A stretch of 64,000 nucleotides of DNA, from NCBI RefSeq assembly GCF_025353885.1, contig NZ_JANXNX010000115.1:1-64000 (forward strand). The letters run 5' to 3'. This DNA comes from Sphingomonas sp. (GTDB lineage Bacteria > Pseudomonadota > Alphaproteobacteria > Sphingomonadales > Sphingomonadaceae). The notes beneath the pieces were generated by a model that ran no database searches, was not told where the DNA came from, and saw only the letters and a program-made list of their open reading frames with translations. This document shows, one piece after another, positions 1,546 to 58,224 of this stretch; the stretch's first letter is position 1; every line of letters begins with the position of its first letter. The position numbers and the translations under genes were made by a program.

Positions 1546-1556
1546 GCGGCCAAAGA

Positions 1557-10737: not shown

Positions 10738-10777
10738 TTATCGGTTCCATTTCAATCTCGTATCGGCCAAGTCTTGC

Positions 10778-13258: not shown

Positions 13259-13299
13259 GTCTCTCTCCCTGTCGGTCCGGTTATCCGGTCTCGATTCAA

Positions 13300-13328: not shown

Positions 13329-13329
13329 C

Positions 13330-13344: not shown

Positions 13345-13393
13345 TGGATTTGATTGCGTTGGGGCAGGATGCCTGTTTTAGACGATCACCGGA

Positions 13394-15169: not shown

Positions 15170-15195
15170 AAAAACGATAATCAAGGGAGAGCGAA

Positions 15196-16614
15196 ATGGC
15201 GACTGCCGACCAACACGGATCTGCACCCGAAACGGACAACATCGGATTCATCGCGGCAATCGTGGCTGTGGCGACGATTGGAGGGCTGTTGTTCGGCTAT
15301 GACAGTGGCGCAGTGAATGGAACGCAGGACGGATTGCGGGCGGCGTTCGCGCTCAGCGATGGTGGCCTTGGCTTCACCGTCGGATCGCTGTTGATCGGTT
15401 GCTTTATCGGGGCATTCTTTGCCGGCACGCTGGCCGACTCGATGGGGCGGCGCAATGTGATGCGCCTTGCCGCAATTCTCTTTCTGATCGGTGCGCTGAC
15501 CCAGGGCTTTGCACATGCCCACCCTCTGTTCGTCGTCGCGCGCATCTGCGGCGGTATCGCGGTCGGTGCGGCCAGCGTATTGTCGCCCGCTTATATTTCC
15601 GAGGTCGCGCCCGCCAACATTCGCGGGCGCATGACAACGGTCCAGCAGATAATGATCATCACGGGGCTGACCGCAGCGTTCGTGGTGAACTATTTCCTGA
15701 CCCAGGCGGCGGGTGCGTCGACAAGCCCATTCTGGTTGGGCATCGCCGCCTGGCGCTGGATGTACCTGATGCAGGCGATCCCGGCGTTGGTATTCCTCGT
15801 TGCCCTGTATTTCATTCCTGAAAGCCCTCGGTTCCTGGTTTCGAAGGGGCGGAATGAACAGGCCTTGATCGTGCTGGCAAAGCTGTTCGGCCCTGCTGCA
15901 GCCGCTCCCAAGCTCGACGAGATTCGGGCGAGTTTTTCGGTCGACCACCGGCCCCGGCTGTCCGACGTCCTGGCGCCGGGAACCCTATTGCGACCCATTG
16001 TCTGGGCCGGGTTATTGCTGGCGGTTTTCCAGCAGCTGGTCGGTATCAACGTCATTTTCTATTATGGTTCGACGTTATGGCAGGCGGCCGGATTTTCGGA
16101 ATCGCAAGCGCTGATGACCAATATCATCTCGGGTAGCGTGTCGATCGTCGCATGTTTCGTTACGGTCGGCCTGGTCGACAAGATCGGTCGCAAGCCTTTG
16201 CTGCTGATCGGTTCGGCCGGGATGGCGATTACGCTGTTCACGATGGTTTATGCTTTTTCCACCGGCACCCTTATCGACGGAAAGCTGACGCTACCGGGCA
16301 ATATGGGCCAGGTCGCCGTGGCTGCGGCGCTGACCTATTCGGTGATGTTCAACGTCAGCTGGGGCCCGGTAATGTGGGTAATGCTGGGTGAAATGTTCCC
16401 GAACCAGTTGCGCGGGTCGGCGCTGGCGGTTTGCGGTTTTGCCCAGTGGTTCGCCAACTACCTCGTTGCCCAATCCTTTCCGATCATGCTCGGCAGTATC
16501 GGACTGGCCAAAAGCTATGCCTTTTATGCGGTCTGCGCGACGATCAGCTTTTTCCTGGTCCAGAAGTTCATTCAGGAGACCAAGGGCAAGGAACTGGAAG
16601 CGATGGAAGGCTAA
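15196..16614 (+). CDS. MFS sugar transporter (sugar porter family)
   Basis: The 472-residue, 12-helix protein follows AGGGAGAGCGAA, a strong ribosome site. Sugar-porter signatures are present: 'GGLLFGYDSGAVNGTQDGL' in helix 1, 'GTLADSMGRRNVM' in loop 2-3, 'PESPRFLVSKGR' after helix 6, 'QQLVGINVIFYYG' in helix 7, 'VDKIGRKPLLLIG' and a C-terminal 'ETKGKELEAME'. It resembles proton-coupled galactose/arabinose/xylose/glucose symporters. It is co-directional with the lactonase and convergent with the GntR regulator, and is probably the sugar uptake step for this pathway. The exact sugar is not predictable. Confidence 0.93.
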   Translation: MATADQHGSAPETDNIGFIAAIVAVATIGGLLFGYDSGAVNGTQDGLRAAFALSDGGLGFTVGSLLIGCFIGAFFAGTLADSMGRRNVMRLAAILFLIGALTQGFAHAHPLFVVARICGGIAVGAASVLSPAYISEVAPANIRGRMTTVQQIMIITGLTAAFVVNYFLTQAAGASTSPFWLGIAAWRWMYLMQAIPALVFLVALYFIPESPRFLVSKGRNEQALIVLAKLFGPAAAAPKLDEIRASFSVDHRPRLSDVLAPGTLLRPIVWAGLLLAVFQQLVGINVIFYYGSTLWQAAGFSESQALMTNIISGSVSIVACFVTVGLVDKIGRKPLLLIGSAGMAITLFTMVYAFSTGTLIDGKLTLPGNMGQVAVAAALTYSVMFNVSWGPVMWVMLGEMFPNQLRGSALAVCGFAQWFANYLVAQSFPIMLGSIGLAKSYAFYAVCATISFFLVQKFIQETKGKELEAMEG

Positions 16615-16629
16615 CACACAACGTCCCCA

Positions 16630-16660
16630 CGCGTCACGTCGCAGTGGGCGGCGTGACGCG
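16630..16660. terminator. Candidate bidirectional terminator hairpin
   Basis: Perfect 9-bp arms, CGCGTCACG and CGTGACGCG, flank a 13-base loop between the convergent MFS and GntR genes. No T-run follows, so it may act as an attenuating hairpin rather than a classic intrinsic terminator. Confidence 0.4.
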
Positions 16661-16764
16661 GCGTCGGACCGGCGGCGGCAACCTATCGGATCAGCAGGTG
16701 TCTATGCGGTAGAAAGGGGGCGATTGTATGAGTAATCAAGCCAGAAAAGGTCCCGATATTTTGC

Positions 16765-17556
16765 CTAGAAGTCCAGCTCGATAACCGAACGCGTGTCTTC
16801 CATCGCCAGATGAACCAACTCCCGCATGGCTGCCCCCGCGCCGTCCGCATCCCCCGCAGCGATGCTTTCATAAACTCGCGCGTGATCGGGAATTGGGTCA
16901 CGCGGAAGCACGCGCATACGCTGCTTGAACTGCGTGGTCCAGTTGACGGCGGCACCGATCGACGCACTCAAAACGATCATCGCATCGTTTCTGGTCGCAT
17001 ATAGGATTGCGGTGTGAAATTCCCGGTCGGCCATGCGTCCATTCTCGGTAGCCAAAGTAAACTCGTGCATCCCGGCCAGGGCGTCGCGCATCCGCGCCAA
17101 ATCTTCCTGGTCTCGGCGCGCGGCAGCCATACTGGCCGCCGCCGGCTCGATGATGGACCGGACTTCGAACAGGCTGCGGATAAGACGCGCATCGGGTTCG
17201 CCCGTAAAGGCCCAGGTCAGGACGTCAGGGTCCAGCAAATTCCAGCGATCCCGAGGCAGGACGCGCGTTCCCGCCTTCGGGCGGCTGTGCACCAGGCCCT
17301 TGGCGGTCAGCACCTGAATGGCCTCGCGATAGGCGCAGCGGGACACGTCGAGTTCCTCGGCAAAAGCGATTTCGCCCGACAATGTGTCACCGGGTTTGTA
17401 GATGCCCGAAAGGATCGCAATCCCGATCTTGTTGGCAATCGCGCCTCTCAGGCGCCGACCGGTGGGGCGCGGTGCCAATACGGCCTGTGATGGAGTCAAC
17501 AATGCTGCGGCTTTTCCCGGAAAATTAGAAACCGACTTTGGCAACGCATCCTTCAT
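16765..17556 (-). CDS. GntR/FCD (FadR-type) transcriptional regulator
   Basis: The start is uncertain; ATG 17556 ('MKDALPKS', AGG upstream) is chosen over ATG 17571 and 17607. The product has about 263 residues. The winged helix reads 'GIYKPGDTLSGEIAFAEELD', then 'VSRCAYREAIQVLTAKGLV' and 'SRPKAGTRVLPRD'. The C-terminal FCD domain shows 'IRSLFEVRSIIEPAAASMAA', 'DREFHTAIL' and the late histidine of 'DHARVYESIAAGD', consistent with metal and carboxylate binding. FCD regulators of the DgoR/LgoR/UxuR group sense sugar acids, and it lies just downstream of a sugar acid dehydratase on the same strand, so it probably represses that pathway. Confidence 0.88.
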   Translation of the reverse strand: MKDALPKSVSNFPGKAAALLTPSQAVLAPRPTGRRLRGAIANKIGIAILSGIYKPGDTLSGEIAFAEELDVSRCAYREAIQVLTAKGLVHSRPKAGTRVLPRDRWNLLDPDVLTWAFTGEPDARLIRSLFEVRSIIEPAAASMAAARRDQEDLARMRDALAGMHEFTLATENGRMADREFHTAILYATRNDAMIVLSASIGAAVNWTTQFKQRMRVLPRDPIPDHARVYESIAAGDADGAGAAMRELVHLAMEDTRSVIELDF

Positions 17557-17664
17557 AAGCCTGTGTATCATGCAGGCGGGGCAGGGGGAACCTTGCGGCA
17601 TAACCACATATGCTGAAACGATTTTCGCGGCGGGATAGGCGAGGACGGAAGACGCGCGTTCCGG

Positions 17665-19461
17665 TCAGTGACTGTCGCGAGGCAGGCCGGCGGTCTGGGC
17701 AACGCGCTGGTACTTCTCCGCTCCCTCCAGGATCGCGCCGCTTTCCAACTGGCCGACGACCGAGCGCTGAATTTCCTGCCACGGCGTCTGCGACTTCGGA
17801 TAGGCATAGCCGCCCGCATCGACCAAAGCGCGGCGGCGTTCGGCAAGTTCTGCTGCGGTTATGAGCACGTCGACGGTGCAGCGCCGGAGGTCGACCCGCA
17901 CCCGGTCGCCGGTCCGCAGCAGGGCAAGCCCGCCCATCGCCGCTGCCTCTGGGCTGGCATTGAGGATCGATGGCGAGCCCGATGTGCCCGACTGCCGACC
18001 GTCCCCGATGCACGGCAGCGCGTCAACGCCCTCGCGGATCAGATAGCTGGGCGGGCGCATGTTCACGACTTCTGCCGCGCCGGGATATCCGATCGGTCCG
18101 GCCCCCCGCATAAACAGCAAATTATCGTCGGTGATCGCCAGCGCGGGGTCGTCGATGCGGCGATGATAGTCCTCGGGACCGTCGAACACTACGGCAGGCC
18201 CCTCGAACGCCTCGGGATCGTCGGGGTTCGACAAATAACGCTCGCGGAATTCAGGGCTGATCACGCTGGTTTTCATGATCGCGGAATCGAACAGATTACC
18301 CCGCAGCACGATGAACCCGGCGTCCCTCATCAGGGGCGCTGCGAAAGGCCGAATGACCTGGTCGTTCTCGATGGTGGCGTCGCGGCAATTTTCGCCGATG
18401 GTCTTGCCATTGGCGGTGATCGCACCTTCACGGATTAGCCCTTGCTTCATCAGTGCGGCTACCACCGCAGGCACGCCCCCGGCCCGGTAGAAATCCTCGC
18501 CCAGATATTCGCCAGCCGGTTGCAAGTTGACCATCAGCGGCACCTTGTGGCCATAATCCTGCCAGTCATCGAGCGTCAGGTCGGCACCGACGTGACGGGC
18601 AATCGCGGCCAGGTGAATGGGCGCATTGGTCGATCCGCCGATGGCCGAATTGACAACGATGGCATTAAGGAAAGCGTCGCGCGTCATGATGTCCGAGGGC
18701 TTCAGGTCCTCCGCGACCATCTCGACGATGCGCCGACCGCTATGATAGGCGGCCTCCTGGCGGTCGCGATATGGCGCGGGAATTGCCGCCGATCCCGGCA
18801 GCGACATGCCCAGCGCCTCGGCCAGGCTGTTCATCGTCGTGGCGGTGCCCATCGTATTGCAATAACCGGTCGATGGTGCCGAACTCGCCACCAGCTTGAT
18901 GAAACCGGCATCGTCGATCTCGCCTGTCGCCAACATCTGCCGCGCCTTCCAGACGATCGTGCCCGACCCGGTGCGCTCGCCCTTGTGCCAGCCATTGAGC
19001 ATCGGGCCGACCGACAACGCGATGGCGGGGATGTTGACCGTCGCGGCGGCCATCAGGCACGCCGGCGTCGTCTTGTCGCAGCCGATCGTCAGCACCACGC
19101 CATCCAGCGGATACCCGTACAGCACCTCGACCAGCCCAAGGTATGACAGGTTGCGATCCAGCCCGGCGGTCGGGCGCTTGCCGGTTTCCTGGATCGGGTG
19201 GACCGGGAATTCAAGCGGCACGCCACCCATCTCGCGGATGCCGTCGCGAATGCGTTCGGCGAGCACAAGATGATGACGGTTGCACGGGCTGAGATCGCTG
19301 CCCGTCTGGGCGATGCCGATGATCGGCCGCCCCGAACGCAGTTCGTCCATGCTGATGCCGAAGTTCAGGTAACGTTCCAGGTACAGCGCCGTCATGTCGA
19401 TGTTGTCGGGATTATCGAACCACGCGCGTGATCGAAGCGTAAGCACTGGTCTGTCGTTCAT
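17665..19461 (-). CDS. IlvD/Edd-family sugar acid (pentonate) dehydratase, XylD-like
   Basis: The 598-residue protein, from recall of the family, is close to Caulobacter-type D-xylonate dehydratase and L-arabonate dehydratases: '[20 protein letters not shown]', '[17 protein letters not shown]' and '[20 protein letters not shown]'. Cysteines placed to bind the Fe-S cluster are visible in 'SPCNRHH', '[12 protein letters not shown]' and '[14 protein letters not shown]'. '[16 protein letters not shown]' and '[25 protein letters not shown]' are late family motifs. It removes water from an aldonic acid to give a 2-keto-3-deoxy acid. With the lactonase, sugar MFS and GntR genes it forms a compact non-phosphorylative sugar module; downstream aldolase or dehydrogenase steps are absent from the window. 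The choice between xylonate, arabonate, galactonate and fuconate is open. Confidence 0.9.
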
Positions 19462-19547
19462 CTTGGTGTTCCGTCAGCAAGCGATTGAAAGGTAGATCAT
19501 GACACGGACATAGGGATTGCCGGGGTCATTCGGCGACAATCGAATTA

Positions 19548-19565
19548 CGGACTTTATATAGTCCG
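19548..19565. promoter_or_regulatory. Candidate operator: 18-bp dyad upstream of the dehydratase
   Basis: CGGACTTTATATAGTCCG has perfect 6-bp arms around a TTATAT centre, with only one mismatched pair in 18. It lies 87-104 bases upstream of the dehydratase start and about 80 bases before the divergent DUF2946-like gene. The AT core looks like a -10 region overlapped by an operator. The GntR/FCD regulator downstream is the obvious candidate to bind it. Confidence 0.5.
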
Positions 19566-19647
19566 ACAAATGAAAGCATGGCAAGTCATCGATAAGCGAC
19601 ACAATCGGCCGAGTGACACCAGTCCGCGGACGGCATAAGGGCGCATT

Positions 19648-20055
19648 GTGATCGCGCTCCGCCATCTTGCTCATTGTCATCGTCGCATGGCCGTGCTGCT
19701 GCTCGCCCTGGCGTTGCTCGTGAAAATGCTGGTTCCGACCGGCTATATGGTTGCGTCCACATCCGGCTCGATCCAGATTGTCATGTGCACGGGCGCCGGT
19801 CCCGTGAAGATCACGATGCCGACAGCAGTGGGTGATACACAGGACGTCGAGCACCGCCAGGACCATCAGGGCAATGCGACACCCTGTGCCTTTGCCGGGC
19901 TTGCGCATTCGGCACTTTCGGCTGTCGATCCGGTTCTGCTGGCGACTAATATCGCGCTGATTGTCACAACGGCGTTTCGCCTAGTCCCGCAGCAGGGCGC
20001 GGAGTGTCAGTTGCACCGCCGCCCCCCTTCCAGAGGTCCGCCAATCGCTGCCTGA
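19648..20055 (+). CDS. DUF2946-like small membrane/exported protein
   Basis: The product has 135 residues from GTG 19648, or 122 from ATG 19687. One strong hydrophobic segment, 'MAVLLLALALLVKMLVPTGY', is followed by 'SGSIQIVMCTGAGPVKI', a histidine-containing linker and 'NATPCAFAGLAHSALSAVDP'; a second hydrophobic stretch follows. The pattern of an early 'LVPxGYM' and a later 'PCAFA' matches DUF2946 proteins found beside metal uptake receptors and copper-related genes. It stands 147 bases upstream of the TonB siderophore receptor on the same strand and is probably co-transcribed. The function is unknown; paired cysteines and histidines suggest metal handling, as inference only. The 20056-20202 gap shows only GC-rich sequence with a GGCCGCGCGGCC palindrome. 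Confidence 0.68.
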   Translation: MIALRHLAHCHRRMAVLLLALALLVKMLVPTGYMVASTSGSIQIVMCTGAGPVKITMPTAVGDTQDVEHRQDHQGNATPCAFAGLAHSALSAVDPVLLATNIALIVTTAFRLVPQQGAECQLHRRPPSRGPPIAA

Positions 20056-20202
20056 TGCCATGACCTGATCGAGGCGCGACGTCCCGACAGATCATCAGCC
20101 AGTCGCCCGCAGAGCCGGGTCGACGCCCGTGCGTGGCCCTTGGGCCGCGCGGCCAGTGCTTGCGCCGGGAGCCGGTCTTCCGCGCCGATTTCAGGATCTC
20201 TC

Positions 20203-22368
20203 ATGTTAAAAACATTTCTCATCGTTTCAGCGTCTGTTTTTGCGTTCGCCGCGTCTGCCAAAGCCGCGGACAGCAGCAGCCATCAACCGCAGATTATCGT
20301 GACCGGCCAACGCGCAACAGACCCGCTCGATCAGGTCACCCAAGCTGGGAGTCGCCTGGGTCTCACCACCCGTGAAACGCCCGCGACAATCGAGACCATC
20401 ACCCAGACAATAATGCTTGCAAAAGGACTGCGGACAACGGTCGAGGCTTATGACAGCGCGCCGGGCGTGGTCGCCGGGCTGTTGCCCGGTGAGCCTGCAA
20501 GCGCATCCATTCGCGGCTTTTCGACCGGCGCGGTTTCGTATCTTTTCGACGGTATGCGCGCCGCCGATTCAACGATTTTGAACCGCAATTACGACAGCTT
20601 CAATTTCGAACGGATCGAAATTCTGAAAGGGCCCGCATCGGTCCTCTATGGCGACGGCGCGCTGGCCGGAGCCATCAATCTGGTGCCGAAAACACCTTTG
20701 TTCGACAAGCAGCAGGTCGATGTCCTGGCCAGCTACGGCAGCTTCAATACAGTTCGGCTCGGCGTCGGGATCAATCAGCCGCTGTCGCCAAATATTGCCT
20801 TCAGGACCGACCTCAGCCTGTCGCGCTCCGACGGCTATGTCCATGACACCAATTCCCGGACGATCCAGTCGACATCCAGCCTGAAGCTGCAACCGCTGGA
20901 CAATCTGTCGGTGTTGCTGGCGTTCGATTATTATGGCGACCGCAACCGCACGCCGTATCAGGGCGCGCCCCTGGTTCCCCGATCGGTCGCGCGCGACCCG
21001 TCAAACGTCGTTCGAACGACCAACGGCTACGTCCTCGACAAGGCGATGCGCGACGAAAACTATAACGTCACCGACGGCCGCATGGATTCAGACGCGTATT
21101 GGGGACGGGGCCGGGTCAGCTATGACTCTGGTGAGGGGTGGACGCTGACGGATGAAATCAATGCCTATAAGGGTAAGCGTCAGTGGGAGAATTCGGAGGA
21201 TTTCACCTACAATCAATCATCGGGATTGCTCGACCGCAGCACGACCAAGATTTACCACGATCAGGACTTCTGGTCGAACCGCGCTTATCTGACGGCCAGC
21301 TTTACCGTGGCGGGCCTGCGCAACCGCATGAACCTGGGCGTCGAATATAGCCGAACCAGGTTCCAAACCATTCGTCGATTTGGCGACACGACCGCCGTTG
21401 CACTGTTCGATCCGGCGCGCGGCAGTTTTCCGGTCGACATCGCCGCAAATTATCCGGGCAACGGCAACCGTGCCAACTACGATTCCCGGATCGTCAGCTG
21501 GGCGGTGTTCGCTGAGGACGCCCTGAACCTCAACGACAAATGGTTGTTGCTGGGTGGCTTGCGGTTCGACGATATCCAGTTGCACCGTCGCATCGACGAT
21601 CTGAACACGATGACGACCAACCTGTTCGGGCGATCCTTCAAGGCGGTGTCGGGGAGGATCGGAACCACCTATGACTTGGCCCCAAAGACCCAGTTATTCG
21701 CGCAATACAGCCATGCCATCACGCCGGTTGGCTCGCTCCTGCTTTCCAACAGCTTGCGCGCCAGCGTCGATCTGACGAAGGGGGATTCGATCGAGGGGGG
21801 GCTGAAGGCCAGCCTGTTTGCCGATCGTCTGACACTGACGGCTTCGGCCTATACGATCAGGCAGGCGGGCATATTGACGCGTGACCCGGCAAGACCGTCC
21901 ATCCAGGTGCAGGGTGGCACCCAGTCGTCGCGGGGGCTGGAGTTTTCCGCGGTCGGCAATGTCACGCGCGCCCTGACCATCGATGCCAATGCGGCGGTTC
22001 TCAAGGCACGATATGATCGGCTGACGAACGGAAGCGGGGTCGACCTGTCGGGCAACCGCTCGGTCAATGTGCCGCAGCGGACCGCCAACCTCACGATCTT
22101 TTACAGTTTCGACGGCCTGCCCGTGACGGCCAGCGCCGCCGTGCGCCATGTCGGTGACATTTACACGAGCACGGCAAACGACATCCGGGTCCAGGGTTAC
22201 ACGATCATGAATGCGGCGCTCATCTATCGGGCGCCATGGGCCACTTTCACCATCAGGGGGCGAAACCTGGCGAACAAGTTCTACGCCTATTGGTCGGGAT
22301 ACAGCGACACGCAGGTCTTTGTCGGGGCGCCACGCAGCGTCGAAATCACTGTTTCCAGCAAGTTCTAG
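20203..22368 (+). CDS. TonB-dependent siderophore-type receptor
   Basis: The start is placed at ATG 20203 ('MLKTFLIVSASVFAFA', AGGA upstream) because it begins the signal peptide; the track start (20140) adds 21 residues. The 721-residue protein has a cleavage site near 'ASAKAADS' and a TonB box-like 'QIIVTGQRATDPL'. The plug reads 'SIRGFSTGAVSYLFDGMRA' and 'RIEILKGPASVLYGDGALAG', typical of ferric-siderophore receptors. The barrel ends in 'APRSVEITVSSKF' with a terminal phenylalanine. The following PepSY membrane proteins are frequent partners of iron-siderophore receptors, supporting iron uptake. The siderophore class cannot be told from sequence alone. Confidence 0.92.
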   Translation: MLKTFLIVSASVFAFAASAKAADSSSHQPQIIVTGQRATDPLDQVTQAGSRLGLTTRETPATIETITQTIMLAKGLRTTVEAYDSAPGVVAGLLPGEPASASIRGFSTGAVSYLFDGMRAADSTILNRNYDSFNFERIEILKGPASVLYGDGALAGAINLVPKTPLFDKQQVDVLASYGSFNTVRLGVGINQPLSPNIAFRTDLSLSRSDGYVHDTNSRTIQSTSSLKLQPLDNLSVLLAFDYYGDRNRTPYQGAPLVPRSVARDPSNVVRTTNGYVLDKAMRDENYNVTDGRMDSDAYWGRGRVSYDSGEGWTLTDEINAYKGKRQWENSEDFTYNQSSGLLDRSTTKIYHDQDFWSNRAYLTASFTVAGLRNRMNLGVEYSRTRFQTIRRFGDTTAVALFDPARGSFPVDIAANYPGNGNRANYDSRIVSWAVFAEDALNLNDKWLLLGGLRFDDIQLHRRIDDLNTMTTNLFGRSFKAVSGRIGTTYDLAPKTQLFAQYSHAITPVGSLLLSNSLRASVDLTKGDSIEGGLKASLFADRLTLTASAYTIRQAGILTRDPARPSIQVQGGTQSSRGLEFSAVGNVTRALTIDANAAVLKARYDRLTNGSGVDLSGNRSVNVPQRTANLTIFYSFDGLPVTASAAVRHVGDIYTSTANDIRVQGYTIMNAALIYRAPWATFTIRGRNLANKFYAYWSGYSDTQVFVGAPRSVEITVSSKF

Positions 22369-48258: not shown

Positions 48259-48621
48259 ATGGTATCGAATGTCCAACGGCTTGAAGCACCTTTAATCGAC
48301 CCCATCAACCGTCGGTCGTCTCCCCGCGTTTCGGTGTTGGTGGCCCAAGCCAGCGTGCGGAAGTTCAGCGAACAGCCAACCGAAGCCGTTCTTGGCGACC
48401 TGTCCATCTATGGCTGCAGAATTCAATCACCCCTCGAACACAGTGCCAATGAGCGCGTCTGGCTGCGCTTTTCAGGAACCAATCCAATCCACGCTACCGT
48501 TGTCTGGAGCGACAAGGGATTTGTTGGCTGCCGGTTCGATGTTCCGATCGCGAACAGTCTTTTTCGATCGCTAACGCTAGATGGCACGCCACAACTGAAA
48601 ATTGCCGAAATCACACGCTGA
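48259..48621 (+). CDS. PilZ domain protein (c-di-GMP effector)
   Basis: The 120-residue, single-domain protein shows the c-di-GMP motif in both halves: an RxxxR-like 'NRRSSPRVSVLV' near the N-terminus and D/NxSxxG as 'LGDLSIYGCRIQSP'. 'ANERVWLRFSG' and 'HATVVWSDKGFVGCRFDVPI' complete the six-stranded barrel. It is divergent from the kdp operon, with no neighbour downstream on its strand. Single PilZ proteins of this kind are common in sphingomonads and act on motility or polymer production through unknown partners. Confidence 0.85.
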   Translation: MVSNVQRLEAPLIDPINRRSSPRVSVLVAQASVRKFSEQPTEAVLGDLSIYGCRIQSPLEHSANERVWLRFSGTNPIHATVVWSDKGFVGCRFDVPIANSLFRSLTLDGTPQLKIAEITR

Positions 48622-49345: not shown

Positions 49346-52300
49346 TCAGCGGCGCGACGATCCCAGGCCCAGCCCGGACAAGCTTTTCTGGTCGAACTTG
49401 AAGCGCAGGGTCACATAAGGTCCCGAACGGGTGTAGCGTGCATCGTTATAGTCGCGGTCATTATAGCCGACAATATTGTAGCCTACCGAAATATAGCCAT
49501 TCTTGAACGGAGCAATGCCAACTGCCGGGCCACCGGAATAACTGATGGCCCGTCCTGCAGCGCTTTCGCGGACAGTTCCCGACACGCCCAGGTCGATCTT
49601 TTCAGACAGGTCGAACTTGATGTCCGCACCGACGACATTCGACCAGCCGGTCAGGTCGTCGCTGTCGTAGCGATCGGCCACATATCGGCTGCCCCAAAAC
49701 AGCGACAATTCGCTGCGACCGAGATAGCGGCCTTCGCTTTTCGTTGTGGGCGACCAATTGACGCTGAGGCTGTTGATAATCCGCCGAGAAACAGCATCAC
49801 CGGTGATCAGCAACACCGAACCTATCGCATCGTTTTGCCCCGCGACCGCGTTCGAAACCTTGTCGCTGCGGAGTTCCAGCTTTTCGAGCCACGCGAAGCG
49901 GCTGTTGTCGGGGCGATTGGCCCAGCTGACCGCGAGCGCCGCAGACTGGGTGGTCGGACCGGCATTCTGTTTGGCGCGGAACCAGCTTGCAGTCGCTCCC
50001 AAGGCGCGACCCTCGCCCAGCGTGCGAAGCATCGACGTGGTAATGCCATAGCGATCGGAAAGGTCGCCGTTGCGATATTCGGCGCGACCGTTCCAGCTCC
50101 AGCGATCGCCGCGATACGTTGCGCCGCCGGTGACAGCGGTGAAATCTTCGGTAATCGTGTTGTTGATGCCCAGAAACCCGCCACTCGCGACCGGCTGATT
50201 AACGTTTAACACGCGTGAGGGATCGATCCCACCGAGGGTCTTGTTGCCGTCGAGCGTGAAATCCACAGTCCAGCGTTTGCCAATCGGCAACGACTGGGCA
50301 AGGCCGTAGGCGGCGTAGCTGCGTGGTCCGTATTCAGCGACATCCTGGCGATTGGCCGTCGCGACCAGACGTCCGCCCGCCCATGGCTTGAGGTCGAAGC
50401 CAATGCGCGCCGTCCGCGCATCGACCGACTTGCCGCTGGCGATTTCGTACGAGCCGATCAGAGTTACCGCCGACGTCACCGCAAAGCGTGCCGTGGCAGT
50501 GTGACGCGCAGGAAAATCGACGCTCCGGCTCACGCCGCCGGGTGCGAATTCGGTTTGCGCGTCCAGTTCCAAGCGATTGTTGAAAAGCTTTTTGGTGGCA
50601 CCAAGCTGGATGATCGTCGAATTGGCGGTCGTTCCATCCACGAGGCGATCGTTGGCAATCGTGACCCCGGCACGCAGGTCGAGGGCCTTGGTTCGATATT
50701 CGACCTTCGCGAGCCCCGCGTTGCGACGGGCGTCGCTGCCAAGCTGGATTTCCTGCCATGCGCTCCCGACCAGCGACAGTTCGGGCGAAATGCGCAGGCG
50801 GCCATCAGCCCCGAACTTGCGCGTGCCGACTTCCGAAGCATTTTGCTGGCCAACACCAAAGCCCGCCTGTTGTTCGCGCGCATAGGCGAAGATGTCGTAC
50901 TTCGGACCGTGATGCTCGGCCTCGACAAGCCATGCGGTCGATGCACCGGCGCTTGCGACATTCGATCCTGGCCGAACCTTGTTGCCGCTGCCCGCAAATT
51001 CTGCACGGATTTCGGTCGAGGCCGAAGGTGTATAGCGAACATCGACGCCACCGACATTGGTGCGCGCGACGTCGTCTTCGTTGTGAATGCCGCTGGCGCC
51101 GACCGTCAGTGTCTTGGCGCTGTTGGTCCATGATGCACGGCCACCGGCGTTGGTGACACGCTGGGCGACGCCATCGACTTCATAGTCAGCGACGATGAAC
51201 TGCGGGTCGAGCAGCGACGAGCGGCTCACCACTGGCGAACGGAACGTTAGTGTGCCCGAAACATAGTCGATGTCGTAATCGATGTGCCGCGTCAGGACCT
51301 TGCTCTCGATGATCTTGTCCGAACGCAGGCGGTCGCGAACTTCGATCGTGATCTTTTCGCTGTTCGGCAAGATGTCGCGCGCCGCCAGACCATAGGGACC
51401 GCTGAGGCCGTTCCCCTGGATTTCCTGGCGACGATGCCGATAGGGCGTGTCCGAGGCGAACGCGGTCGCGGCCACATGTTCCGACCGATACTGCGCCTTC
51501 AGACCGTTGAAGGTGCGGACGTAACGCGTGAGCTGGGGTTCGGCCATGCCGGTTTCATAGTCACCGAACAGCGCATAGAACTGCGGCCGTTCGAGGCGAA
51601 CGTATAGCTTGCGGATCGATGCGGCGTCGTAGCGACGCTCGCTGCGGTCGGCATAGACGGTGTAATAAGCCTGCGGATCGAGCGTGCCGCCGAACCGGGT
51701 CTGGTCTTCGTGCTTGGCGCTGTCGTAAGACAGTGTCAGCAGCCATTTGCCCTGGATCTTGCCCTTTGCATAAAGCGCCACGCGACCGCTTGTCAGCCAC
51801 TCGTCCGACCCCTTGCCGAGTTCTTCGAGACGACCCTTCACGGTGTTGAAGCCAGCCGTTCCCGAGGCAAAGCCAACGACAGTCCACGGACGATCTCCCG
51901 GCGTTAACCAGGTGTCGATCCGCTGCGAACGGGTCACTTCGCCATCGCGAAAGGGCAGGGTCAGCGTCAGCGTGCCCGAAGCCGTCGTTGGCTCCAGTTC
52001 GATATAGGCGACGCCGTCGTCCCCGTGGACATGCCAGACCGGGCGGGCGCGTTCCAGACCGGCGAGCTGGCGGGCTTGCTGGGCGTCGGCTTCAACGGCG
52101 GGATAATAAGGGGCGGGCACGCTGAAGTCGCCGACCAGACCGTGATGGATCGGCTTGCCATCGCGATCGGTCAGGCGAACGGCGATTACGGGCCGGGTCA
52201 CGCCGTCTGCCACCAGCGACGAGCGGTCGCGCAGAAATTCGGCGTGGAGCGGGCTTGCCGAGAAGTGGACGTCGCGGGACAGGTGCTCGACCACCGTTCC

Positions 52301-54439
52301 GCTGGCGTCGCGGACCTCGGCGGTAAAACGGGTGTCGCGGTCGTTAAGGTCGAGCGCGCGCCACAGGGTGACGGCAACGGTGGCGTCGGCGTTCTTGCGC
52401 GTCCCGTCCAGCGCCATTGCATCGACCGGCTTGCCGTTGGCAAACAGGCTGACCGTCTGGCTTGGCAGATGCTTGATGGCAACGCGCACGGCTTTTGTCC
52501 GCGGGTTGTGATCGGGTTCGGGGAACAGCCATGCGATGCCCGGGGTCTGGCCGCTAAACCAGTCGCGCTCGGCGCCCGCCGCGGCCTGGTCGGTCGCGGC
52601 GCTCAATGGCGCAATGGCTGTCGCGGTCGAACGCGGCGCGTTGAAACCGGCGGTTGCGTGGAAGTCAGCGCGCAACAGGGCACCACCCTGGCCTTCGACA
52701 AAGCGCGAGATAGCGCTGCCTGCAGAACGCGCGTTGAGGGCGCAGTTTGCAGGCACGAGGTTGGGGCCGAGCGTCGACGGATCGATCTGGACGACATGCG
52801 TGCCCGGCAACACGCCTTCAAAATGATAGCGCCCGTCAATCTCGGTGACCGAATAGCTACCATCTTCCATCATTACGCGGACCCCCGCGATCCCATTGGT
52901 CGCCCTGGGGTCGACGCTGCATCCGCCATCGGTAATGCGACCGATGATGGTCATGCGATCCGAAATGCCGTCGCGGGCGATGCGGACGGCGGCGTCCGCA
53001 ATGGCGCTGGTCGTTCCGAATGTATCGCGCGCCTGCGCCCGGTTGATCGCTTGGCCTGACTGCGCGTCGGGACGAACCTCCAGCAGGTAAGTGACGACAC
53101 CCGATGCGCGGATGGGCAGCGCCGGGAGCCTGATATCCAGGTCCCGACCATCACTACTAGCCGTATAGGTTATGAGTTCACCATTGTAGCGAACCGTGTT
53201 TGGTTTCAGGCGCATCGCCGATGGCAGGTGATCGGTCACGGTGACAATGCCGGTGGCGCGCGTGGCATCGCTATTGGTCACCGTAATCCGGTATTGCACG
53301 GCGTCGCCGGGAACCGCGACCGCTGCGGAAGCCGCCTTACGAAGGGTCAGGCCGCCCGCAGGCTTGTCGGCGGGAAAGTCGATCCGCACCGGGGCTGGGT
53401 CCGATAACACGAAAATAGCCCCATAGGAGCCGGGACCGAGCGCGAAGGGAAGCCCGTCAGGTCGTCGCAGACTGGCAAGGTCAGCCGGATTTGACAGTGA
53501 CGGCACAGTGTAAGGCGAGGGGGGCCGAACCAGCAGCTTGTAACGGCCGGGTTTGGCAAAGGGAAAGCGATATTCGCCCGCTGGGAAGGTGTAAGTAGCC
53601 CCTCTCGCATCAACAACAGTAGTTCCTGTAACCAATGTGGATGGAAAGAGTGAAGTGCCGTCGTCGCCGTACACGGTTGCGGGAGCGCCCGTATCCGCAT
53701 CGATGAGCGTTACGGTGGTTCCATTGATGGGCGTGGCGTCACGGCTGTCAAAGACAGCGCCATAGGGATCTATCAGCACCTCGACCGGCGTATTGGCGAT
53801 CAGCGAACCATCGGCGCGAACTGAATCGAGCTGCAGCTTGTCACCAGGCTGGAGCGAAAGCTCGCAATCGTGCAATACGGGGCTGGGAGGAACCGGAGAG
53901 GTTCGTATCATGCCGACGAACTGGCCGGTATTGACACCGCTTTCGCCGAGGACCAGCGTCTCCTCATCCCCGGCAGGCGTCTTAAGCGTTACCGTCAGCG
54001 TATCGACGCGCGAAGGGTCTCGATTGTCGACTGCCGAAGTAACGCGGATCACCAGGGGTTCGCCTGCGCGCAAAAGTGTTGTCTGCTCGACGGTGGCAGG
54101 GCTGAGAGGGGTGTCGGCGTAAGCGCCGGTCAGCACCACTGGACGGTCGCCGACTTTCCCGCGACAAATCGTCTGCGGGATGTTCAGTTGCTGGCCGTTC
54201 GGCGTGGTGGCGAAGTGGAACGTGGAAAGCGTCAGGGTCGCGACGTTGCGGTCGACCAACAGGTCGACGCGGTTCGACTGGCGAACAACCGTTGCGTTTC
54301 CCGCGTCCCATTGGATCGTCGCGGTATTGCTGATCGTATCGGCGCGCGCGGGTGTGCTGCCCATGGCGGGCGCCATGGCTGCAAGCAAAACTCCGAAGGC
54401 CCTCAGATGGTTAATCGCGTTACCTATAAAAAAGGGCAC
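49346..54439 (-). CDS. Giant exported protein: DUF11/Ig-like modules plus outer-membrane barrel
   Basis: The track start is GTG 54439; the ribosome site is weak. The 1697-residue product has a signal peptide ending near 'STPARA' (residue 33), then 'DTISNTATIQWDAGN', shared with the smaller proteins upstream. Next come a calcium-binding-like/SdrD-type region (about 200-320), a DUF11 repeat ('VQYRITVTNSDATRATGIVT', about 365-480), a carboxypeptidase-regulatory-like fold ('GIAGVRVMMEDGSYSVTEID', about 490-560) and a Big_1-like Ig domain ('SSLVADGVTRPVIAVRLTDR', about 740-850). From about 855 alternating amphipathic strands continue to the end ('YVTLRFKFDQ'), consistent with a large barrel. It is the last of five co-directional genes. 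Function unknown; an anchor, exporter or adhesin for the preceding secreted proteins is the leading idea. Confidence 0.75.
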   Translation of the reverse strand: MPFFIGNAINHLRAFGVLLAAMAPAMGSTPARADTISNTATIQWDAGNATVVRQSNRVDLLVDRNVATLTLSTFHFATTPNGQQLNIPQTICRGKVGDRPVVLTGAYADTPLSPATVEQTTLLRAGEPLVIRVTSAVDNRDPSRVDTLTVTLKTPAGDEETLVLGESGVNTGQFVGMIRTSPVPPSPVLHDCELSLQPGDKLQLDSVRADGSLIANTPVEVLIDPYGAVFDSRDATPINGTTVTLIDADTGAPATVYGDDGTSLFPSTLVTGTTVVDARGATYTFPAGEYRFPFAKPGRYKLLVRPPSPYTVPSLSNPADLASLRRPDGLPFALGPGSYGAIFVLSDPAPVRIDFPADKPAGGLTLRKAASAAVAVPGDAVQYRITVTNSDATRATGIVTVTDHLPSAMRLKPNTVRYNGELITYTASSDGRDLDIRLPALPIRASGVVTYLLEVRPDAQSGQAINRAQARDTFGTTSAIADAAVRIARDGISDRMTIIGRITDGGCSVDPRATNGIAGVRVMMEDGSYSVTEIDGRYHFEGVLPGTHVVQIDPSTLGPNLVPANCALNARSAGSAISRFVEGQGGALLRADFHATAGFNAPRSTATAIAPLSAATDQAAAGAERDWFSGQTPGIAWLFPEPDHNPRTKAVRVAIKHLPSQTVSLFANGKPVDAMALDGTRKNADATVAVTLWRALDLNDRDTRFTAEVRDASGTVVEHLSRDVHFSASPLHAEFLRDRSSLVADGVTRPVIAVRLTDRDGKPIHHGLVGDFSVPAPYYPAVEADAQQARQLAGLERARPVWHVHGDDGVAYIELEPTTASGTLTLTLPFRDGEVTRSQRIDTWLTPGDRPWTVVGFASGTAGFNTVKGRLEELGKGSDEWLTSGRVALYAKGKIQGKWLLTLSYDSAKHEDQTRFGGTLDPQAYYTVYADRSERRYDAASIRKLYVRLERPQFYALFGDYETGMAEPQLTRYVRTFNGLKAQYRSEHVAATAFASDTPYRHRRQEIQGNGLSGPYGLAARDILPNSEKITIEVRDRLRSDKIIESKVLTRHIDYDIDYVSGTLTFRSPVVSRSSLLDPQFIVADYEVDGVAQRVTNAGGRASWTNSAKTLTVGASGIHNEDDVARTNVGGVDVRYTPSASTEIRAEFAGSGNKVRPGSNVASAGASTAWLVEAEHHGPKYDIFAYAREQQAGFGVGQQNASEVGTRKFGADGRLRISPELSLVGSAWQEIQLGSDARRNAGLAKVEYRTKALDLRAGVTIANDRLVDGTTANSTIIQLGATKKLFNNRLELDAQTEFAPGGVSRSVDFPARHTATARFAVTSAVTLIGSYEIASGKSVDARTARIGFDLKPWAGGRLVATANRQDVAEYGPRSYAAYGLAQSLPIGKRWTVDFTLDGNKTLGGIDPSRVLNVNQPVASGGFLGINNTITEDFTAVTGGATYRGDRWSWNGRAEYRNGDLSDRYGITTSMLRTLGEGRALGATASWFRAKQNAGPTTQSAALAVSWANRPDNSRFAWLEKLELRSDKVSNAVAGQNDAIGSVLLITGDAVSRRIINSLSVNWSPTTKSEGRYLGRSELSLFWGSRYVADRYDSDDLTGWSNVVGADIKFDLSEKIDLGVSGTVRESAAGRAISYSGGPAVGIAPFKNGYISVGYNIVGYNDRDYNDARYTRSGPYVTLRFKFDQKSLSGLGLGSSRR

Positions 54440-54487
54440 GACGGTACACCGCTTGCCAGGTCAGCAAGGAGCGAGCCGTCGCGCGCA

Positions 54488-55540
54488 TCAATTTATCGTT
54501 GTCCGGAAATAAAGCGTGCGGGCCGTGCCCGCCGCGACCGTCGCCAGCGTGCCGCTGACCGTTCCGCCAGAGAAAGTGCCGCCAGCGGTGCCGTCCGCAT
54601 TGCAGGACCCACTGGTAACGGTTCCGTTGATGAAAATGCTCCCTGGCACGAATGTCGTCTGCGTCGGCAACGTGTCCGAAATCGCCACATTACTGGCGCC
54701 CGCACCACCGGCAGCGTTGGCGGTCTGAATGCAATACTCGACGACAGCGCCCGGAATAAGCTTTGGATTGGTCGTGCCGTTCGATGGATCCGATATGACC
54801 TTGCTGATCTTGGTCACCGTCAGCGTCGCGCCTGATACGGTATAGTCGTCGCGTGCTGAAAATTGGCCGTCGCGTGCGGCATCGGTCGAGCCTGCACCAT
54901 CGGCGAACACGGTGTCCTGGCCCGCGGTATTGGCACCGGTGGTCTCGGTGATCACAACGCCCGGGGCACCGGCTCCCCCGGCCTCACGCGCTTGTGCGGT
55001 CAGCGTAATGCCTGCGACATCGCCATTGACGCGATTGGCGGGAATATTAGCGACGACAAAAACAGTTCGCGATGCATCGGCGGCGATTTCGTCGAGGTAG
55101 GTGACGGCGAGATCAGTCCCTGCGTCGTACGTGCCATTGGTGTTGGTATCGATGAACAGGCCCGGCGCCGAAACATCGAAATTGTCGGTGCCGCCATGCT
55201 GGGCGGTGCCGCCCGCTTGCTGAGCAACAGCGAGACCGAGATCGAGCGGCGCGTTGGACGTGTTTGTGACCGTGAAGGTCGTAACCGCGGCGGACTGACC
55301 GGGAGCAACCGTCGTCGTCGCCGTGCCCGTTTCCGCAACCGTCAGCGTGATCTTGCGATCCACAGTAAATGTGTTCGTCGCGCTGACGGCGGTCTGGGCA
55401 ACGCCCCCCACCGAATAACCGACCGAGACCGTGTTGGTAATGGTGGACCCGGCGGTCGTGCCCGCGGCAAAAGCAGGCGCACTGACGCCGGTCAGGACGA
55501 CGGTCCCAAAGGCGGCGAGATTGCGAAAGTAAGATGTCAT
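54488..55540 (-). CDS. Secreted DUF11-like protein, paralogue B
   Basis: ATG 55540 ('MTSYFRNLAAFGTVVLTG', GGGGA upstream) is preferred to the track start at 55567. The 350-residue product has a signal peptide ending 'SAPAFAAG', then 'STITNTVSVGYSVGGVAQTA', 'VDRKITLTVAETGTATTTVA' and 'VTTFTVTNTSNAPLDLGLAV'. A calcium-loop-like 'FIDTNTNGTYDAGTDLAVTY' follows, then a C-terminal DUF11 domain ('LIPGAVVEYCIQTANAAGGA') ending 'RTLYFRTTIN'. It is clearly paralogous to the next upstream gene over its whole length. All-beta, exported and cysteine-poor, it lies 48 bases before the giant gene. Confidence 0.8.
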   Translation of the reverse strand: MTSYFRNLAAFGTVVLTGVSAPAFAAGTTAGSTITNTVSVGYSVGGVAQTAVSATNTFTVDRKITLTVAETGTATTTVAPGQSAAVTTFTVTNTSNAPLDLGLAVAQQAGGTAQHGGTDNFDVSAPGLFIDTNTNGTYDAGTDLAVTYLDEIAADASRTVFVVANIPANRVNGDVAGITLTAQAREAGGAGAPGVVITETTGANTAGQDTVFADGAGSTDAARDGQFSARDDYTVSGATLTVTKISKVISDPSNGTTNPKLIPGAVVEYCIQTANAAGGAGASNVAISDTLPTQTTFVPGSIFINGTVTSGSCNADGTAGGTFSGGTVSGTLATVAAGTARTLYFRTTIN

Positions 55541-55650
55541 CGTTTTGGTCCCCGAGAAAAGCCGCAAGTGGCGTCACTGTCGAAAGGCAGCGACGCCACG
55601 CGCAGCAAGCCGGCAGCACGCTTTCCCCAAAGCATGCTGCCGGCTGCGCG

Positions 55651-56694
55651 TCAGTTTATGGTCGTGCGAAAGTAGAGCGTCCTTGTGGTGCCCGCAGGAA
55701 CAGTTGAAATCGTGCCGGAAACTGTCGTCCCAGCGATCGTCCCGCTGTTCGTGCCGCCGGAGCACGTGCCCGCCGTCGAATTGATGAAGATGCCGGTGCC
55801 GTCATAGGTCGTCTGCGATGGCAGCGGATCGCTGATCGCGACGCCCGATGCGTCGGCGCCGCCAGCGGCGTTGCTCACCAGGATGCAATAAGAAACCACG
55901 GCACCCGGGATCATTTTAGGATTGGTCGTGCCGTTCAGCGGGTCCGAGACGATCGTCGCCGTCTTCGTGACGCTCAGTGCAGCAGCAGATACGGTATAAT
56001 CGTTCTTGGCGGAGAACAGGCCGTCGCGGGCAGCATCGGTCGCGCCCGCCGTATCGGCAAATACCGTGTCCATCAGGGCAGTATTCGCGCCGACAGTTTC
56101 GGTCAGCACGGCACCCTGGCTGCCAGCGGTGCCGCCATTGTCTGCTTGTGCTGTAAGCGTGACAGCGGCAACGTCGTTGGTGGCGCGCCCGATCGGGATG
56201 TTGACCACGACGAAGACGGTTTTCGAACTATCCGCTGCAACTTCGTCAAGATAGGTGATGACGGTATCGGTCGCCGCATTGAAAGTGCCGTCGCCATTGT
56301 CGAGATAAAAGATCGGGCTCGTCACGTCGAAATTGTCCGTGCCGCCATGTGGGGCAGCGCCGCCGACTTGCTGGGCCAGCGACAGGCCGAAATCGAGCGT
56401 CGCGTTAGAAGTGTTGGTCACGGTGAAGGTCGTGACGGCGGCCATCTGGCCGGGTGACACGTTGGTCGTTGTCGTGCCGACAGGCGCAACCGTCAGCGTG
56501 ATCTTTCGATCGACCACGAACGTGTTCGACGCGTTGATCGCCGTCTGCGCGACGGCGCCGACGTTGTAGTTGACCACCACGTTGTTAACGATATTAGACC
56601 CGGCGGCTGTTCCCGCAGCAAAGGCCGGGCCCGAGCCCAGCGCTGTCAAGGCAATGGCACTGGCAGCAGCCAGGAATTTGGTCATGGTCTTCAT
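55651..56694 (-). CDS. Secreted DUF11-like protein, paralogue A
   Basis: The 347-residue product has a signal peptide ending near 'SGPAFAAG'. The order of segments matches paralogue B: 'SNIVNNVVVNYNVGAVAQTA', 'VDRKITLTVAPVGTTTTNVS', 'FTVTNTSNATLDFGLSLAQQ', 'HGGTDNFDVTSPIFYLDNGD', 'AARDGLFSAKNDYTVSAAAL', 'MIPGAVVSYCILVSNAAGGA' and the identical ending 'RTLYFRTTIN'. The two genes are adjacent tandem duplicates that have drifted. Both carry D-rich loops ('DNGDGTFNAATD') of the kind that bind calcium. Probable secreted or surface-displayed structural protein; no enzyme motif is visible. Confidence 0.8.
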   Translation of the reverse strand: MKTMTKFLAAASAIALTALGSGPAFAAGTAAGSNIVNNVVVNYNVGAVAQTAINASNTFVVDRKITLTVAPVGTTTTNVSPGQMAAVTTFTVTNTSNATLDFGLSLAQQVGGAAPHGGTDNFDVTSPIFYLDNGDGTFNAATDTVITYLDEVAADSSKTVFVVVNIPIGRATNDVAAVTLTAQADNGGTAGSQGAVLTETVGANTALMDTVFADTAGATDAARDGLFSAKNDYTVSAAALSVTKTATIVSDPLNGTTNPKMIPGAVVSYCILVSNAAGGADASGVAISDPLPSQTTYDGTGIFINSTAGTCSGGTNSGTIAGTTVSGTISTVPAGTTRTLYFRTTIN

Positions 56695-56767
56695 CTCGAA
56701 TTCTCTTTCCTAATCCAGTTCATGATGCCATCCCCCACCGCCGGCATCGAAAAGGCGGAATTCTCAA

Positions 56768-57229
56768 TTACTTAACGGAACCTCTGAAGCTCAGTTTGCC
56801 GGTGCCACCGATCGCAATCGGTGCTTTCAATATCCAGCGAACATGCGTGACATCCTCGGGCAAAGCGGCGCGCGATGCGCCCGCGGTGGAAACCCGCAGC
56901 GTGCCGAGAGACCCCCAGCTTTTCCCGCCATCGACCGAATAGCTGGCCCCCGCGTCGGCGGTGCTGTCGAAGGCGACGCCGGCCGGGATGGGGTTGGTCA
57001 CCGTGAAATTGGTTGCGGGTGTCTTGCCCTGATTGCGATAGCTCAGCACGAACACCAGCTTTGCGCCCGGCGGCACCGACTTGGGCTGCTCGAGCGTGAC
57101 TTTCACTTTGCCACCGGACCGAGGAACCGCGCGCTCGACGAACATCGCGCTGGTCAGCGCAACGTCATTGGCAGCAAGCGCAGCGGCAGGTGTCGAAAGC
57201 GCAAACAAAGCGAGAATAAGTCTGATCAC
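56768..57229 (-). CDS. Small exported DUF11 single-domain protein
   Basis: The 153-residue product has the signal peptide 'IRLILALFALSTPAAALA'. The mature protein is one DUF11 domain: 'PPGAKLVFVLSYRNQGKTPA' and 'TNFTVTNPIPAGVAFDSTAD', then 'SYSVDGGKSWGSLGTLRVST' and an ending 'GTGKLSFRGSVK'. It lies 11 bases downstream of the 327-residue protein gene and 73 bases upstream of paralogue A. It could be a minor subunit, cap or chaperone of the larger DUF11 proteins. No characterised relative was recognised. Confidence 0.78.
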   Translation of the reverse strand: MIRLILALFALSTPAAALAANDVALTSAMFVERAVPRSGGKVKVTLEQPKSVPPGAKLVFVLSYRNQGKTPATNFTVTNPIPAGVAFDSTADAGASYSVDGGKSWGSLGTLRVSTAGASRAALPEDVTHVRWILKAPIAIGGTGKLSFRGSVK

Positions 57230-57240
57230 CGGTCTAATTC

Positions 57241-58224
57241 CTAATTGATCTTGGTTTTGAAAGTGACGGTTCGCGTCTGGCCAGCGGCTACGCCACCGAA
57301 CCGCGCGGCGATCGCCGTGCCCGAAAATTCCCCGGCGTCGCTGTCCGTGGCGTCGGTCAGCGCCGCGCCCTGAAGCGTCAGGCTGCCGACGACGTAGGTT
57401 GTGGCGGCAGGGATGGGATCAGTCACGGCCAGGTTAGACAGCGCACCGCTGCCCGAAACCGTCGCAACCAGAGTGTATGTGATCACCGATCCAGGGACTG
57501 ATCGCGTGCCGCCGAACGGATCGGCGATGGTTGCGCTTTTCACGAACGAAACCGTCGCCGCGCTGACGATATAAAAACCCTTGTCGCGCCCGACGCCTGT
57601 GGAGGTGCCGATCACGGCATCGCCGCCGCCATCGCCAACACCCGTAAAGACGGTCCCGGCGGGGCCGGTGCCCGTTACCGCGGTTGCTGTCAGGTCGGTC
57701 TGGCCACGCTGGCCATCGGTGGCTGTCCCGGGAATGGTCGACAGTATGAACGCGCGGATCGACCCGTCGGCCGCGAGGACGGGATCGTTCGACCCGGCGG
57801 CATAGACCGTGTCGACGCCCGCGTCGTAAACACCGTTGTGATTGGTATCGAGGACGATCGAAGTGGTCGATGGATCGAACGCGTCGCCACCAATCGCATT
57901 GACCGGGGCAAGGCGAAACGCCTCTGATCCGTTTCCGGTATTTGTGATGTTGAAACTGAGAATCTGGTTGGTGCCACCCGAAAAGGCGCTGACGTCGCCG
58001 GGGTCGGCAGACGCCACCTTCACGTTAATGACTTCATCGACTTTCAGGTCGACCTTGTTCGACGGTACCGAAACCGGCTGGCCGACCGAATTGGTGTACG
58101 TTGCCGTTGCCGTATTGGTGATCGTCGTGCCGGCACTGGTTCCTGTCGCCAGCGCAGGCGCGCAAAAAACGATCGTCGTGGCCGGGATCGCCATGAGAAC
58201 AACAGCTCCCAGACGTACCTTCAT
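57241..58224 (-). CDS. Secreted DUF11-like protein, first gene of the operon
   Basis: ATG 58224 ('MKVRLGAVVLMAIPATTIVF') begins a good signal peptide ending 'CAPALATG'; ATG 58254 in the same frame adds ten residues and has AGGA upstream, so the start is not settled. The 327-residue mature part reads 'GTTITNTATATYTNSVGQPV', 'SFNITNTGNGSEAFRLAPVN', 'IVLDTNHNGVYDAGVDTVYA' (calcium-loop-like) and a C-terminal DUF11 domain ending 'RTVTFKTKIN'. It has the same plan as paralogues A and B but is more distant. The 185-215-base upstream region has repeated dyads and presumably holds the operon promoter. Confidence 0.8.
   Translation of the reverse strand: MKVRLGAVVLMAIPATTIVFCAPALATGTSAGTTITNTATATYTNSVGQPVSVPSNKVDLKVDEVINVKVASADPGDVSAFSGGTNQILSFNITNTGNGSEAFRLAPVNAIGGDAFDPSTTSIVLDTNHNGVYDAGVDTVYAAGSNDPVLAADGSIRAFILSTIPGTATDGQRGQTDLTATAVTGTGPAGTVFTGVGDGGGDAVIGTSTGVGRDKGFYIVSAATVSFVKSATIADPFGGTRSVPGSVITYTLVATVSGSGALSNLAVTDPIPAATTYVVGSLTLQGAALTDATDSDAGEFSGTAIAARFGGVAAGQTRTVTFKTKIN

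Follow-up and report, generated by a model that had tools for sequence, protein, structure and literature searches.

Five open reading frames, designated g1 to g5, were located on the minus strand within nt 49346–58224 of the window, i.e., the whole 64,000-nt stretch of DNA that was analyzed, with intergenic gaps of 11, 73, 110, and 48 bp in the order g1 to g5. Gene g1 (nt 57241–58224, with an alternative start at 58254) encoded a protein of 327 aa, g2 (nt 56768–57229) one of 153 aa, g3 (nt 55651–56694) one of 347 aa, g4 (nt 54488–55540, with an alternative start at 55567) one of 350 aa, and g5 (nt 49346–54439) one of 1697 aa. All five products began with a Sec-type signal sequence, as judged by eye. 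The proteins of g1 and g4 were homologous end to end, and those of g3 and g4 shared 66% identity, i.e., they were close paralogues. The sequence-only reading had described five same-strand genes for exported all-beta proteins, with gaps of 11–110 bp and a barrel-like C-terminal half in the last protein, and this observation was confirmed. A tRNA-Asp gene adjoins the operon on the opposite strand, and an Rfam scan detected nothing besides this tRNA; a scan for promoters and terminators gave no excess over shuffled sequences, and the region upstream of g1 contained nothing promoter-like.

With the Pfam profile of DUF11 (cut-off, 24.6 bits), g5 scored 32.8 bits over residues 364–472 and g2 32.1 bits, while g1 and g4 scored 25.8 bits each when their C-terminal pieces were scanned alone; TIGR01451 matched g1, g2, g4, and g5. 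The product of g5 was composed of N-terminal modules, a complete DUF11 domain (nt 52979–53350), an SdrD_B-like domain (nt 52778–52903, residues 513–554) with more all-beta modules, and a large predicted C-terminal barrel. Of the domains assigned to g5 before any search, DUF11 was thus above threshold, the SdrD-like domain was below it here (25.5 versus 29.7 bits) but clearly matched in the relative L151 (45.4 bits), and Big_1 was unsupported (E 0.03 only). The accompanying remark that DUF11 occurs usually in other phyla has to be corrected, DUF11 being common in Proteobacteria. The AlphaFold model of the g4 monomer had a pLDDT of 90 and gave only generic Ig-like matches with Foldseek, chiefly to integrins and to surface proteins of Gram-positive bacteria. 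When g5, the g5 barrel, g4, and g1 were compared with the PDB by sequence and by profile, no meaningful match was returned.

A scan of the genome collection reported 317 relatives, of which 80 were kept as sphingomonads or related MAGs. Genes g1, g2, and g4 preceded g5, all on one strand, in 73 of the 74 loci with enough upstream sequence, the remaining one lacking g2; the unit was thus syntenic across sphingomonads in the gene-neighborhood check proposed earlier. Conservation of the gene set as one unit shows that the arrangement is not a chance one; nearly all of the assessable loci have a single g4, and the g3/g4 pair therefore looks like a local duplication. Gene g5 was present in 16 of the 61 genomes searched, all from the same family. 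Relatives detected with the profile of the C-terminal half (family profile A3) were found more widely, in 44 of 299 genomes from a phylum-wide sample; gene order was identical in L144 and L147, with a close variant in L146, L148, L149, and L151, and the same donor/acceptor logic (see below) was observed outside Alphaproteobacteria and on an Acinetobacter plasmid. At other loci, a related barrel gene was situated directly 3′ of a giant DUF11 gene encoding 2000–3800 aa; these two-gene loci were rejected as members of the same system, since no donor hairpin is present in the barrel proteins that they encode.

In tandem DUF11 arrays, every domain closes with a GTxTNTATV...SASVTV-type hairpin. Giant tandem-DUF11 proteins of other loci served to build two profiles, one of the whole domain (138 positions) and one of the hairpin. 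Against the former, the C-terminal DUF11 of g1 ended at position 95 of 138 (5–95% range 93–95, n = 74) and that of g4 at the same position (range 94–98, n = 77), typically with one residue left after the profile end, while the internal DUF11 of g5 (n = 68) and the domains of the tandem giants (n = 108), which served as complete-domain controls, ended at 131 and 130, respectively. The acceptor domains of g1 (nt 57244–57561) and g4 (nt 54491–54829, with the stop codon at the domain end) are thus DUF11 domains without the last hairpin. A complete Ig-like domain with Lys, Asp, and Asn in one chain, taken as a mark of the DUF11 family, was found in the internal domain of g5 and not in these two acceptors.

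The missing segment appeared at the other end of the proteins. The mature N-terminus exceeded the 99th shuffle percentile of the hairpin profile in 56 of 74 g1, 62 of 77 g4, and 54 of 80 g5 proteins, and in none of 75 g2 proteins, with medians of 11.2 (g1), 11.9 (g4), and 7.8 bits (g5), the corresponding medians of the shuffles being -1.8, -3.0, and -0.4. For the copies in the window, the numbers of 2000 shuffles scoring as well were 0 for g1, 1 for g4, 5 for g5, 54 for g3, and 1502 for g2, and the g1 hairpin reached 20.1 bits with this profile, derived from unrelated tandem DUF11 proteins. The donor hairpins so located were at nt 58039–58143 in g1 (residues 28–62), 56509–56613 in g3 (residues 28–62, a weak match taken alone), 55358–55462 in g4 (residues 27–61), and 54254–54343 in g5 (residues 33–62, with Ile36, Asn38, Ala40, and Trp44 conserved). 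Joining of peptides was in part consistent with this assignment: the g4 C-terminus alone matched Pfam DUF11 with 25.8 bits up to position 84, with the g5 hairpin added it scored 32.3 bits up to position 97, and with a scrambled hairpin 25.8 bits again; the g1 C-terminus rose from 25.8 to 28.1 bits with the g4 hairpin and was at 23.0 bits with a scrambled one. For g2 the scrambled hairpin scored equal to the real one, and hence this test was uninformative. On these profile scores it holds that mature g1, g4, and g5, and more weakly g3, start with the hairpin that the C-terminal DUF11 of g1 and g4 lacks. An incomplete C-terminal domain combined with an N-terminal segment matching the missing strands is the sequence pattern of the donor-strand principle, and this split of the DUF11 domain goes beyond what the sequence-only reading had seen.

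DUF11 domains of the isopeptide type ("CLIPPER") form Lys-Asp-Asn isopeptides, as in structure 9IFR with Lys715, Asp748, and Asn806, although some DUF11 domains are without the bond (PMC12617251). The internal domain of g5 carries all three residues (Lys368, Asp403, and Asn466). In the acceptors, Lys was present in 100% of the aligned proteins (Lys229 in g1, Lys244 in g4), as was Asp (Asp269 in 74/74 g1, Asp289 in 77/77 g4), and the Asn was conserved in the donor hairpins (Asn37 in 74/74 g1, Asn36 in 76/77 g4, and Asn38 in all 61 aligned g5 proteins). The alignments therefore show a predicted triad that is split, with Lys and Asp in the acceptor and Asn in the donor hairpin, and as the reactive Asn would come from the donor, a spontaneous Lys-Asn isopeptide is possible at every shaft joint. 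In g2 the catalytic Asp was replaced by Asn in 72 of 75 proteins and Lys was not conserved; judged from these residues, the g2 joint cannot form such a bond. The same donor-hairpin fibre might also exist without any intermolecular isopeptide, Lys, Asp, and Asn being kept for fold stability only: the residues are clearly missing at the g2 joint, bond-free DUF11 domains exist, and chaperone-usher pili hold together non-covalently. We regard this as unlikely, though worth keeping in mind, since the three residues are essentially invariant in the shaft subunits even though they would meet from different polypeptides.

Donors and acceptors were distributed unevenly among the five proteins. Those of g1, g3, and g4 have both, with an Ig-like middle between donor and acceptor in g1; g5 has a donor only, and g2, an acceptor-only DUF11 protein and the proposed cap, has no donor hairpin. 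Some operons contained a sixth, acceptor-only gene, with a P-domain in its product or, in the case of L144, an ice-binding domain, and a profile comparison indicated that g2 is co-terminal with the tip acceptors. This bookkeeping therefore predicts a chain made up of g5, then the shaft subunits, and then an acceptor-only end. In this genome, a single DUF11 gene was found outside the operon, on contig C61; its 629-aa product possessed CshA_NR2, two SpaA_3 domains, and a g4-like truncated acceptor, without a donor hairpin. Matches to the acceptor profile occurred in exactly the 16 of 61 relatives having g5 (Fisher p 5e-15, phylogeny ignored), a nominal value that is inflated by relatedness, as the co-occurrence is in part due to common descent; the matches also include g4 itself. 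All 16 genomes encoded one or more acceptor proteins in addition to g4, frequently unlinked to the operon, and those examined, some of which were covered only in part, had no hairpin and ended at the acceptor.

Natural fusions displayed the same order in cis. In four barrel proteins (L197–L200), a subunit was fused ahead of the g5-type sequence and its DUF11 was complete (profile to 132–133), the completing hairpin being situated where g5 has its own N-terminal hairpin; the C-terminus of g4 and the N-terminus of g5 from the window could be aligned across the point of fusion, all three triad residues (K, D, and N) being in register. In multi-subunit fusions, the internal DUF11 domains were complete and the last one truncated, and in L157 the barrel protein was fused to a complete DUF11 array. 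As read from the sequences, these fusions document that the parts are covalently adjacent in cis; they do not document assembly in trans. They also bear on the idea that each shaft subunit inserts its own hairpin into its own DUF11, giving circularly permuted, non-polymerising monomers. The g4 AlphaFold monomer positions the hairpin with high confidence, which could reflect such self-complementation, but the donor of g5 without an open acceptor and the acceptors of g2 and the adhesins without a donor need partners, and the fusions link successive subunits linearly; we thus consider self-closure improbable.

The C-terminal half of g5 had no sequence match in Pfam, NCBIfam, PHROG, or the PDB, and the genome holds one copy of a barrel of this type. 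The AlphaFold model of residues 505–1697 (47 sequences) was all-beta, with a pLDDT of 74.8, and had about 32 long strands in residues 1079–1682, with about four further strands preceding a small insert. Foldseek matches were mostly to outer-membrane barrels (SlpA, BtuB, SprA, LptD, and FimD), all with low TM-scores. The last strand, GPYVTLRFKF, terminal and aromatic, resembles a BAM beta-signal. This half (nt 49385–51802, about residues 880–1685) may accordingly be read as a large outer-membrane barrel with an uncertain number of strands, roughly 32–36, in a low-confidence model (pTM 0.47); the structure prediction suggested by the sequence-only reading gave an all-beta model with mostly barrel-like matches, at low confidence. 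No profile of an usher (PF00577), TonB plug or receptor, POTRA/ShlB two-partner transporter, or SprA_N matched g5 at E≤1 in Pfam and NCBIfam, so that the matches to usher, two-partner, or TonB families that had been named as contrary evidence did not appear, and membership of g5 in the usher, TonB receptor, TPS, or SprA groups was dropped. The very large single-chain outer-membrane barrels SprA of the type 9 translocon and Deinococcus SlpA resemble g5 as weak Foldseek matches, with TM-scores by query length of ≤0.24 (SlpA, the best match, 0.23; SprA ≤0.18); they differ in that g5 has neither a PDB sequence match nor an SprA_N profile.

The match to SlpA would agree with an envelope tether or S-layer-like scaffold, in which an SlpA-like porin barrel carries the small proteins as a periplasmic or surface lattice, and OmpA-type peptidoglycan-binding domains are present in related loci. 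The match is generic, however, BtuB and LptD being alike, the adhesin, P-domain, and ice-binding heads of acceptor-only proteins point to outward-facing ends, and head-to-tail logic yields chains, not lattices; a scaffold is therefore very improbable. Somewhat less probable still is a two-partner-like secretion system in which the small proteins are exported by the barrel and stay independent of one another at the surface, forming no chain. The giant DUF11 exoprotein genes followed directly by a barrel gene elsewhere in proteobacteria do recall exporter-cargo pairs, but no POTRA or TPS profile matched, and the split DUF11, the split triad, and the fusions would be left unexplained. Where the sequence-only reading had left a surface fibre, a sheath, or a secretion system side by side, the donor/acceptor layout, the fusions, and the adhesin-headed acceptor-only proteins now favor a barrel-anchored fibre, and a sheath or S-layer is not favored.

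We therefore propose, as the probable reading, that the operon specifies a head-to-tail surface fibre formed by donor-hairpin complementation, with the barrel as the base and with shaft joints able to self-ligate. The subunits would be exported by Sec, and the N-terminal hairpin of one would complete the DUF11 at the C-terminal end of the following one, so that g1, g3, and g4 would form a head-to-tail chain. The g5 barrel would reside in the outer membrane with its hairpin plugging the last subunit; since g5 offers an N-terminal hairpin and has no open acceptor, it is predicted to be the base, the polarity of the chain likewise being a prediction. Acceptor-only proteins, i.e., g2 and adhesins encoded beside the operon or elsewhere, would cap the far end, presumably exposed at the surface, and the shaft joints may self-ligate through Lys-Asn isopeptides in a natural SpyTag/SpyCatcher-like manner. 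The subunits might pass through the barrel or alongside it. That they take the route through the barrel is a guess. Related giants, e.g., that of L155 (CshA_NR2 near the N-terminus, OmpA at the C-terminus), lend it some encouragement, since such a protein would have to cross the outer membrane beside its barrel partner. We know of no chaperone that would keep open acceptors soluble in the periplasm, a point that counts against the model. The fullest version, a self-ligating covalent Gram-negative pilus whose subunits, base, and exchangeable tip adhesins are joined via split isopeptide domains without sortase, chaperone, or usher, and which is extruded through a giant barrel of a new class (about 36 strands), is possible, and we hold it only tentatively.

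In chaperone-usher pili such as type 1 and P pili, the N-terminal segment of a neighbor completes an Ig-like subunit, an outer-membrane barrel forms the base, and an adhesin occupies the tip. The operon would resemble them in all three respects; it differs in that usher (PF00577) and PapD chaperone (PF00345) profiles had no match in the genome, with positive E. coli controls, the barrel protein would supply the base donor, and isopeptide residues are located at the joints. SpyTag/SpyCatcher and isopeptag/pilin-C are engineered split isopeptide domains, one part bearing Lys and the other the strand with Asn or Asp; unlike these, the split in the operon appears to be natural and would be used for polymerisation. 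SpyTag is also described in a published account (PMC6539128). With the DUF11/CLIPPER fibrillar adhesins the operon shares the domain family and the Lys-Asp-Asn triad; in those stalks of surface adhesins, domain and bond lie in one chain (PMC12617251; 9IFR), whereas in the operon the domain stops short of its last hairpin and a second protein is proposed to contribute the Asn. Archaeal threads of Saci_0406 are assembled by head-to-tail donor-strand complementation, with a proposed intermolecular isopeptide and a putative cap protein (PMC9715654), features that the proposed fibre would share. The threads have an unrelated subunit family, no outer membrane, and no barrel anchor, and their bond joins the N-terminal Asp24 to Asn57 two subunits away and is not a split Lys-Asp-Asn domain (PMC9715654). 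The proposed working principle is close to those of archaeal threads and chaperone-usher pili, and the operon is a member of neither. A C-terminal signal of the LPXTG type, as in sortase pili, was absent from the subunits, which terminate with the last acceptor strand (for example, FRTTIN-stop).

Literature searches for the operon retrieved no published description. A T11SS lead that arose from matches to the prefix DUF11 was incidental, mostly DUF1194. In passages of a survey of CshA_NR2 proteins, DUF11 is the commonest proteobacterial stalk, and these passages do not mention a split-DUF11 mechanism (PMC10952558). If the proposed fibre exists, it would be a widespread surface-fibre system in sphingomonads and beyond, based on a principle that has been seen in engineered tags and a proposed archaeal case and, to our knowledge, not in a Gram-negative envelope. 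Secreted adhesins without an anchor (the CshA_NR2 types and the ice-binding protein) could then be retained at the surface by means of an open DUF11 groove into which the donor hairpin of the fibre inserts. Single-residue predictions would be testable, and new protein-ligation pairs might be obtained. A function would also be suggested for part of a large uncharacterised barrel family annotated as "DUF11", "OmpA", or "TonB-dependent receptor". The last of these labels has been given by annotators to distant relatives.

A likely tip adhesin of the fibre system proposed for operon genes g1-g5 is encoded outside the operon in the same genome (contig C61, L209, nt 5436-7325, plus strand), where an unlinked gene predicts a secreted protein of 629 aa possessing a CshA_NR2 domain, two SpaA_3 domains and a truncated DUF11 domain similar to that of g4. 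In another genome (L144, nt 606-1817, minus strand), a gene downstream of the barrel gene encodes an acceptor-only protein with an ice-binding domain (PF11999, E 2e-60), a possible ice adhesin on the fibre tip. Among the assessable sphingomonad loci, only L059 (around nt 7640-7772) lacks g2, the proposed cap gene, between g1 and g4, and offers a natural test case for dispensability of the cap.

In other proteobacteria, two-gene loci (L152-L156, L158, L160 and L166) encode a giant DUF11 exoprotein of 2000-3800 aa and, immediately after it, a related barrel protein (1100-1700 aa) that lacks the donor hairpin, and are probably a single-chain cousin of the g1-g5 system. A further relative is carried by Acinetobacter haemolyticus plasmid p4 (L164, nt 8240-20605), in which an OmpA-family gene separates the barrel gene from that for a large acceptor protein; upstream, some DUF11 orfs appear broken.

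In g5, about residues 1009-1090 (nt 51170-51415 of the window; motif GPYxL...NSE...RDR...DYDIDxxxGTLxFxxP) belong to the stretch that is conserved most widely in the barrel family; they form an insert following the first predicted strands and might represent a plug-like domain. A small orf close to the 3′-end of g5 (nt 48259-48621, plus strand) resembled, by eye, a PilZ domain protein.
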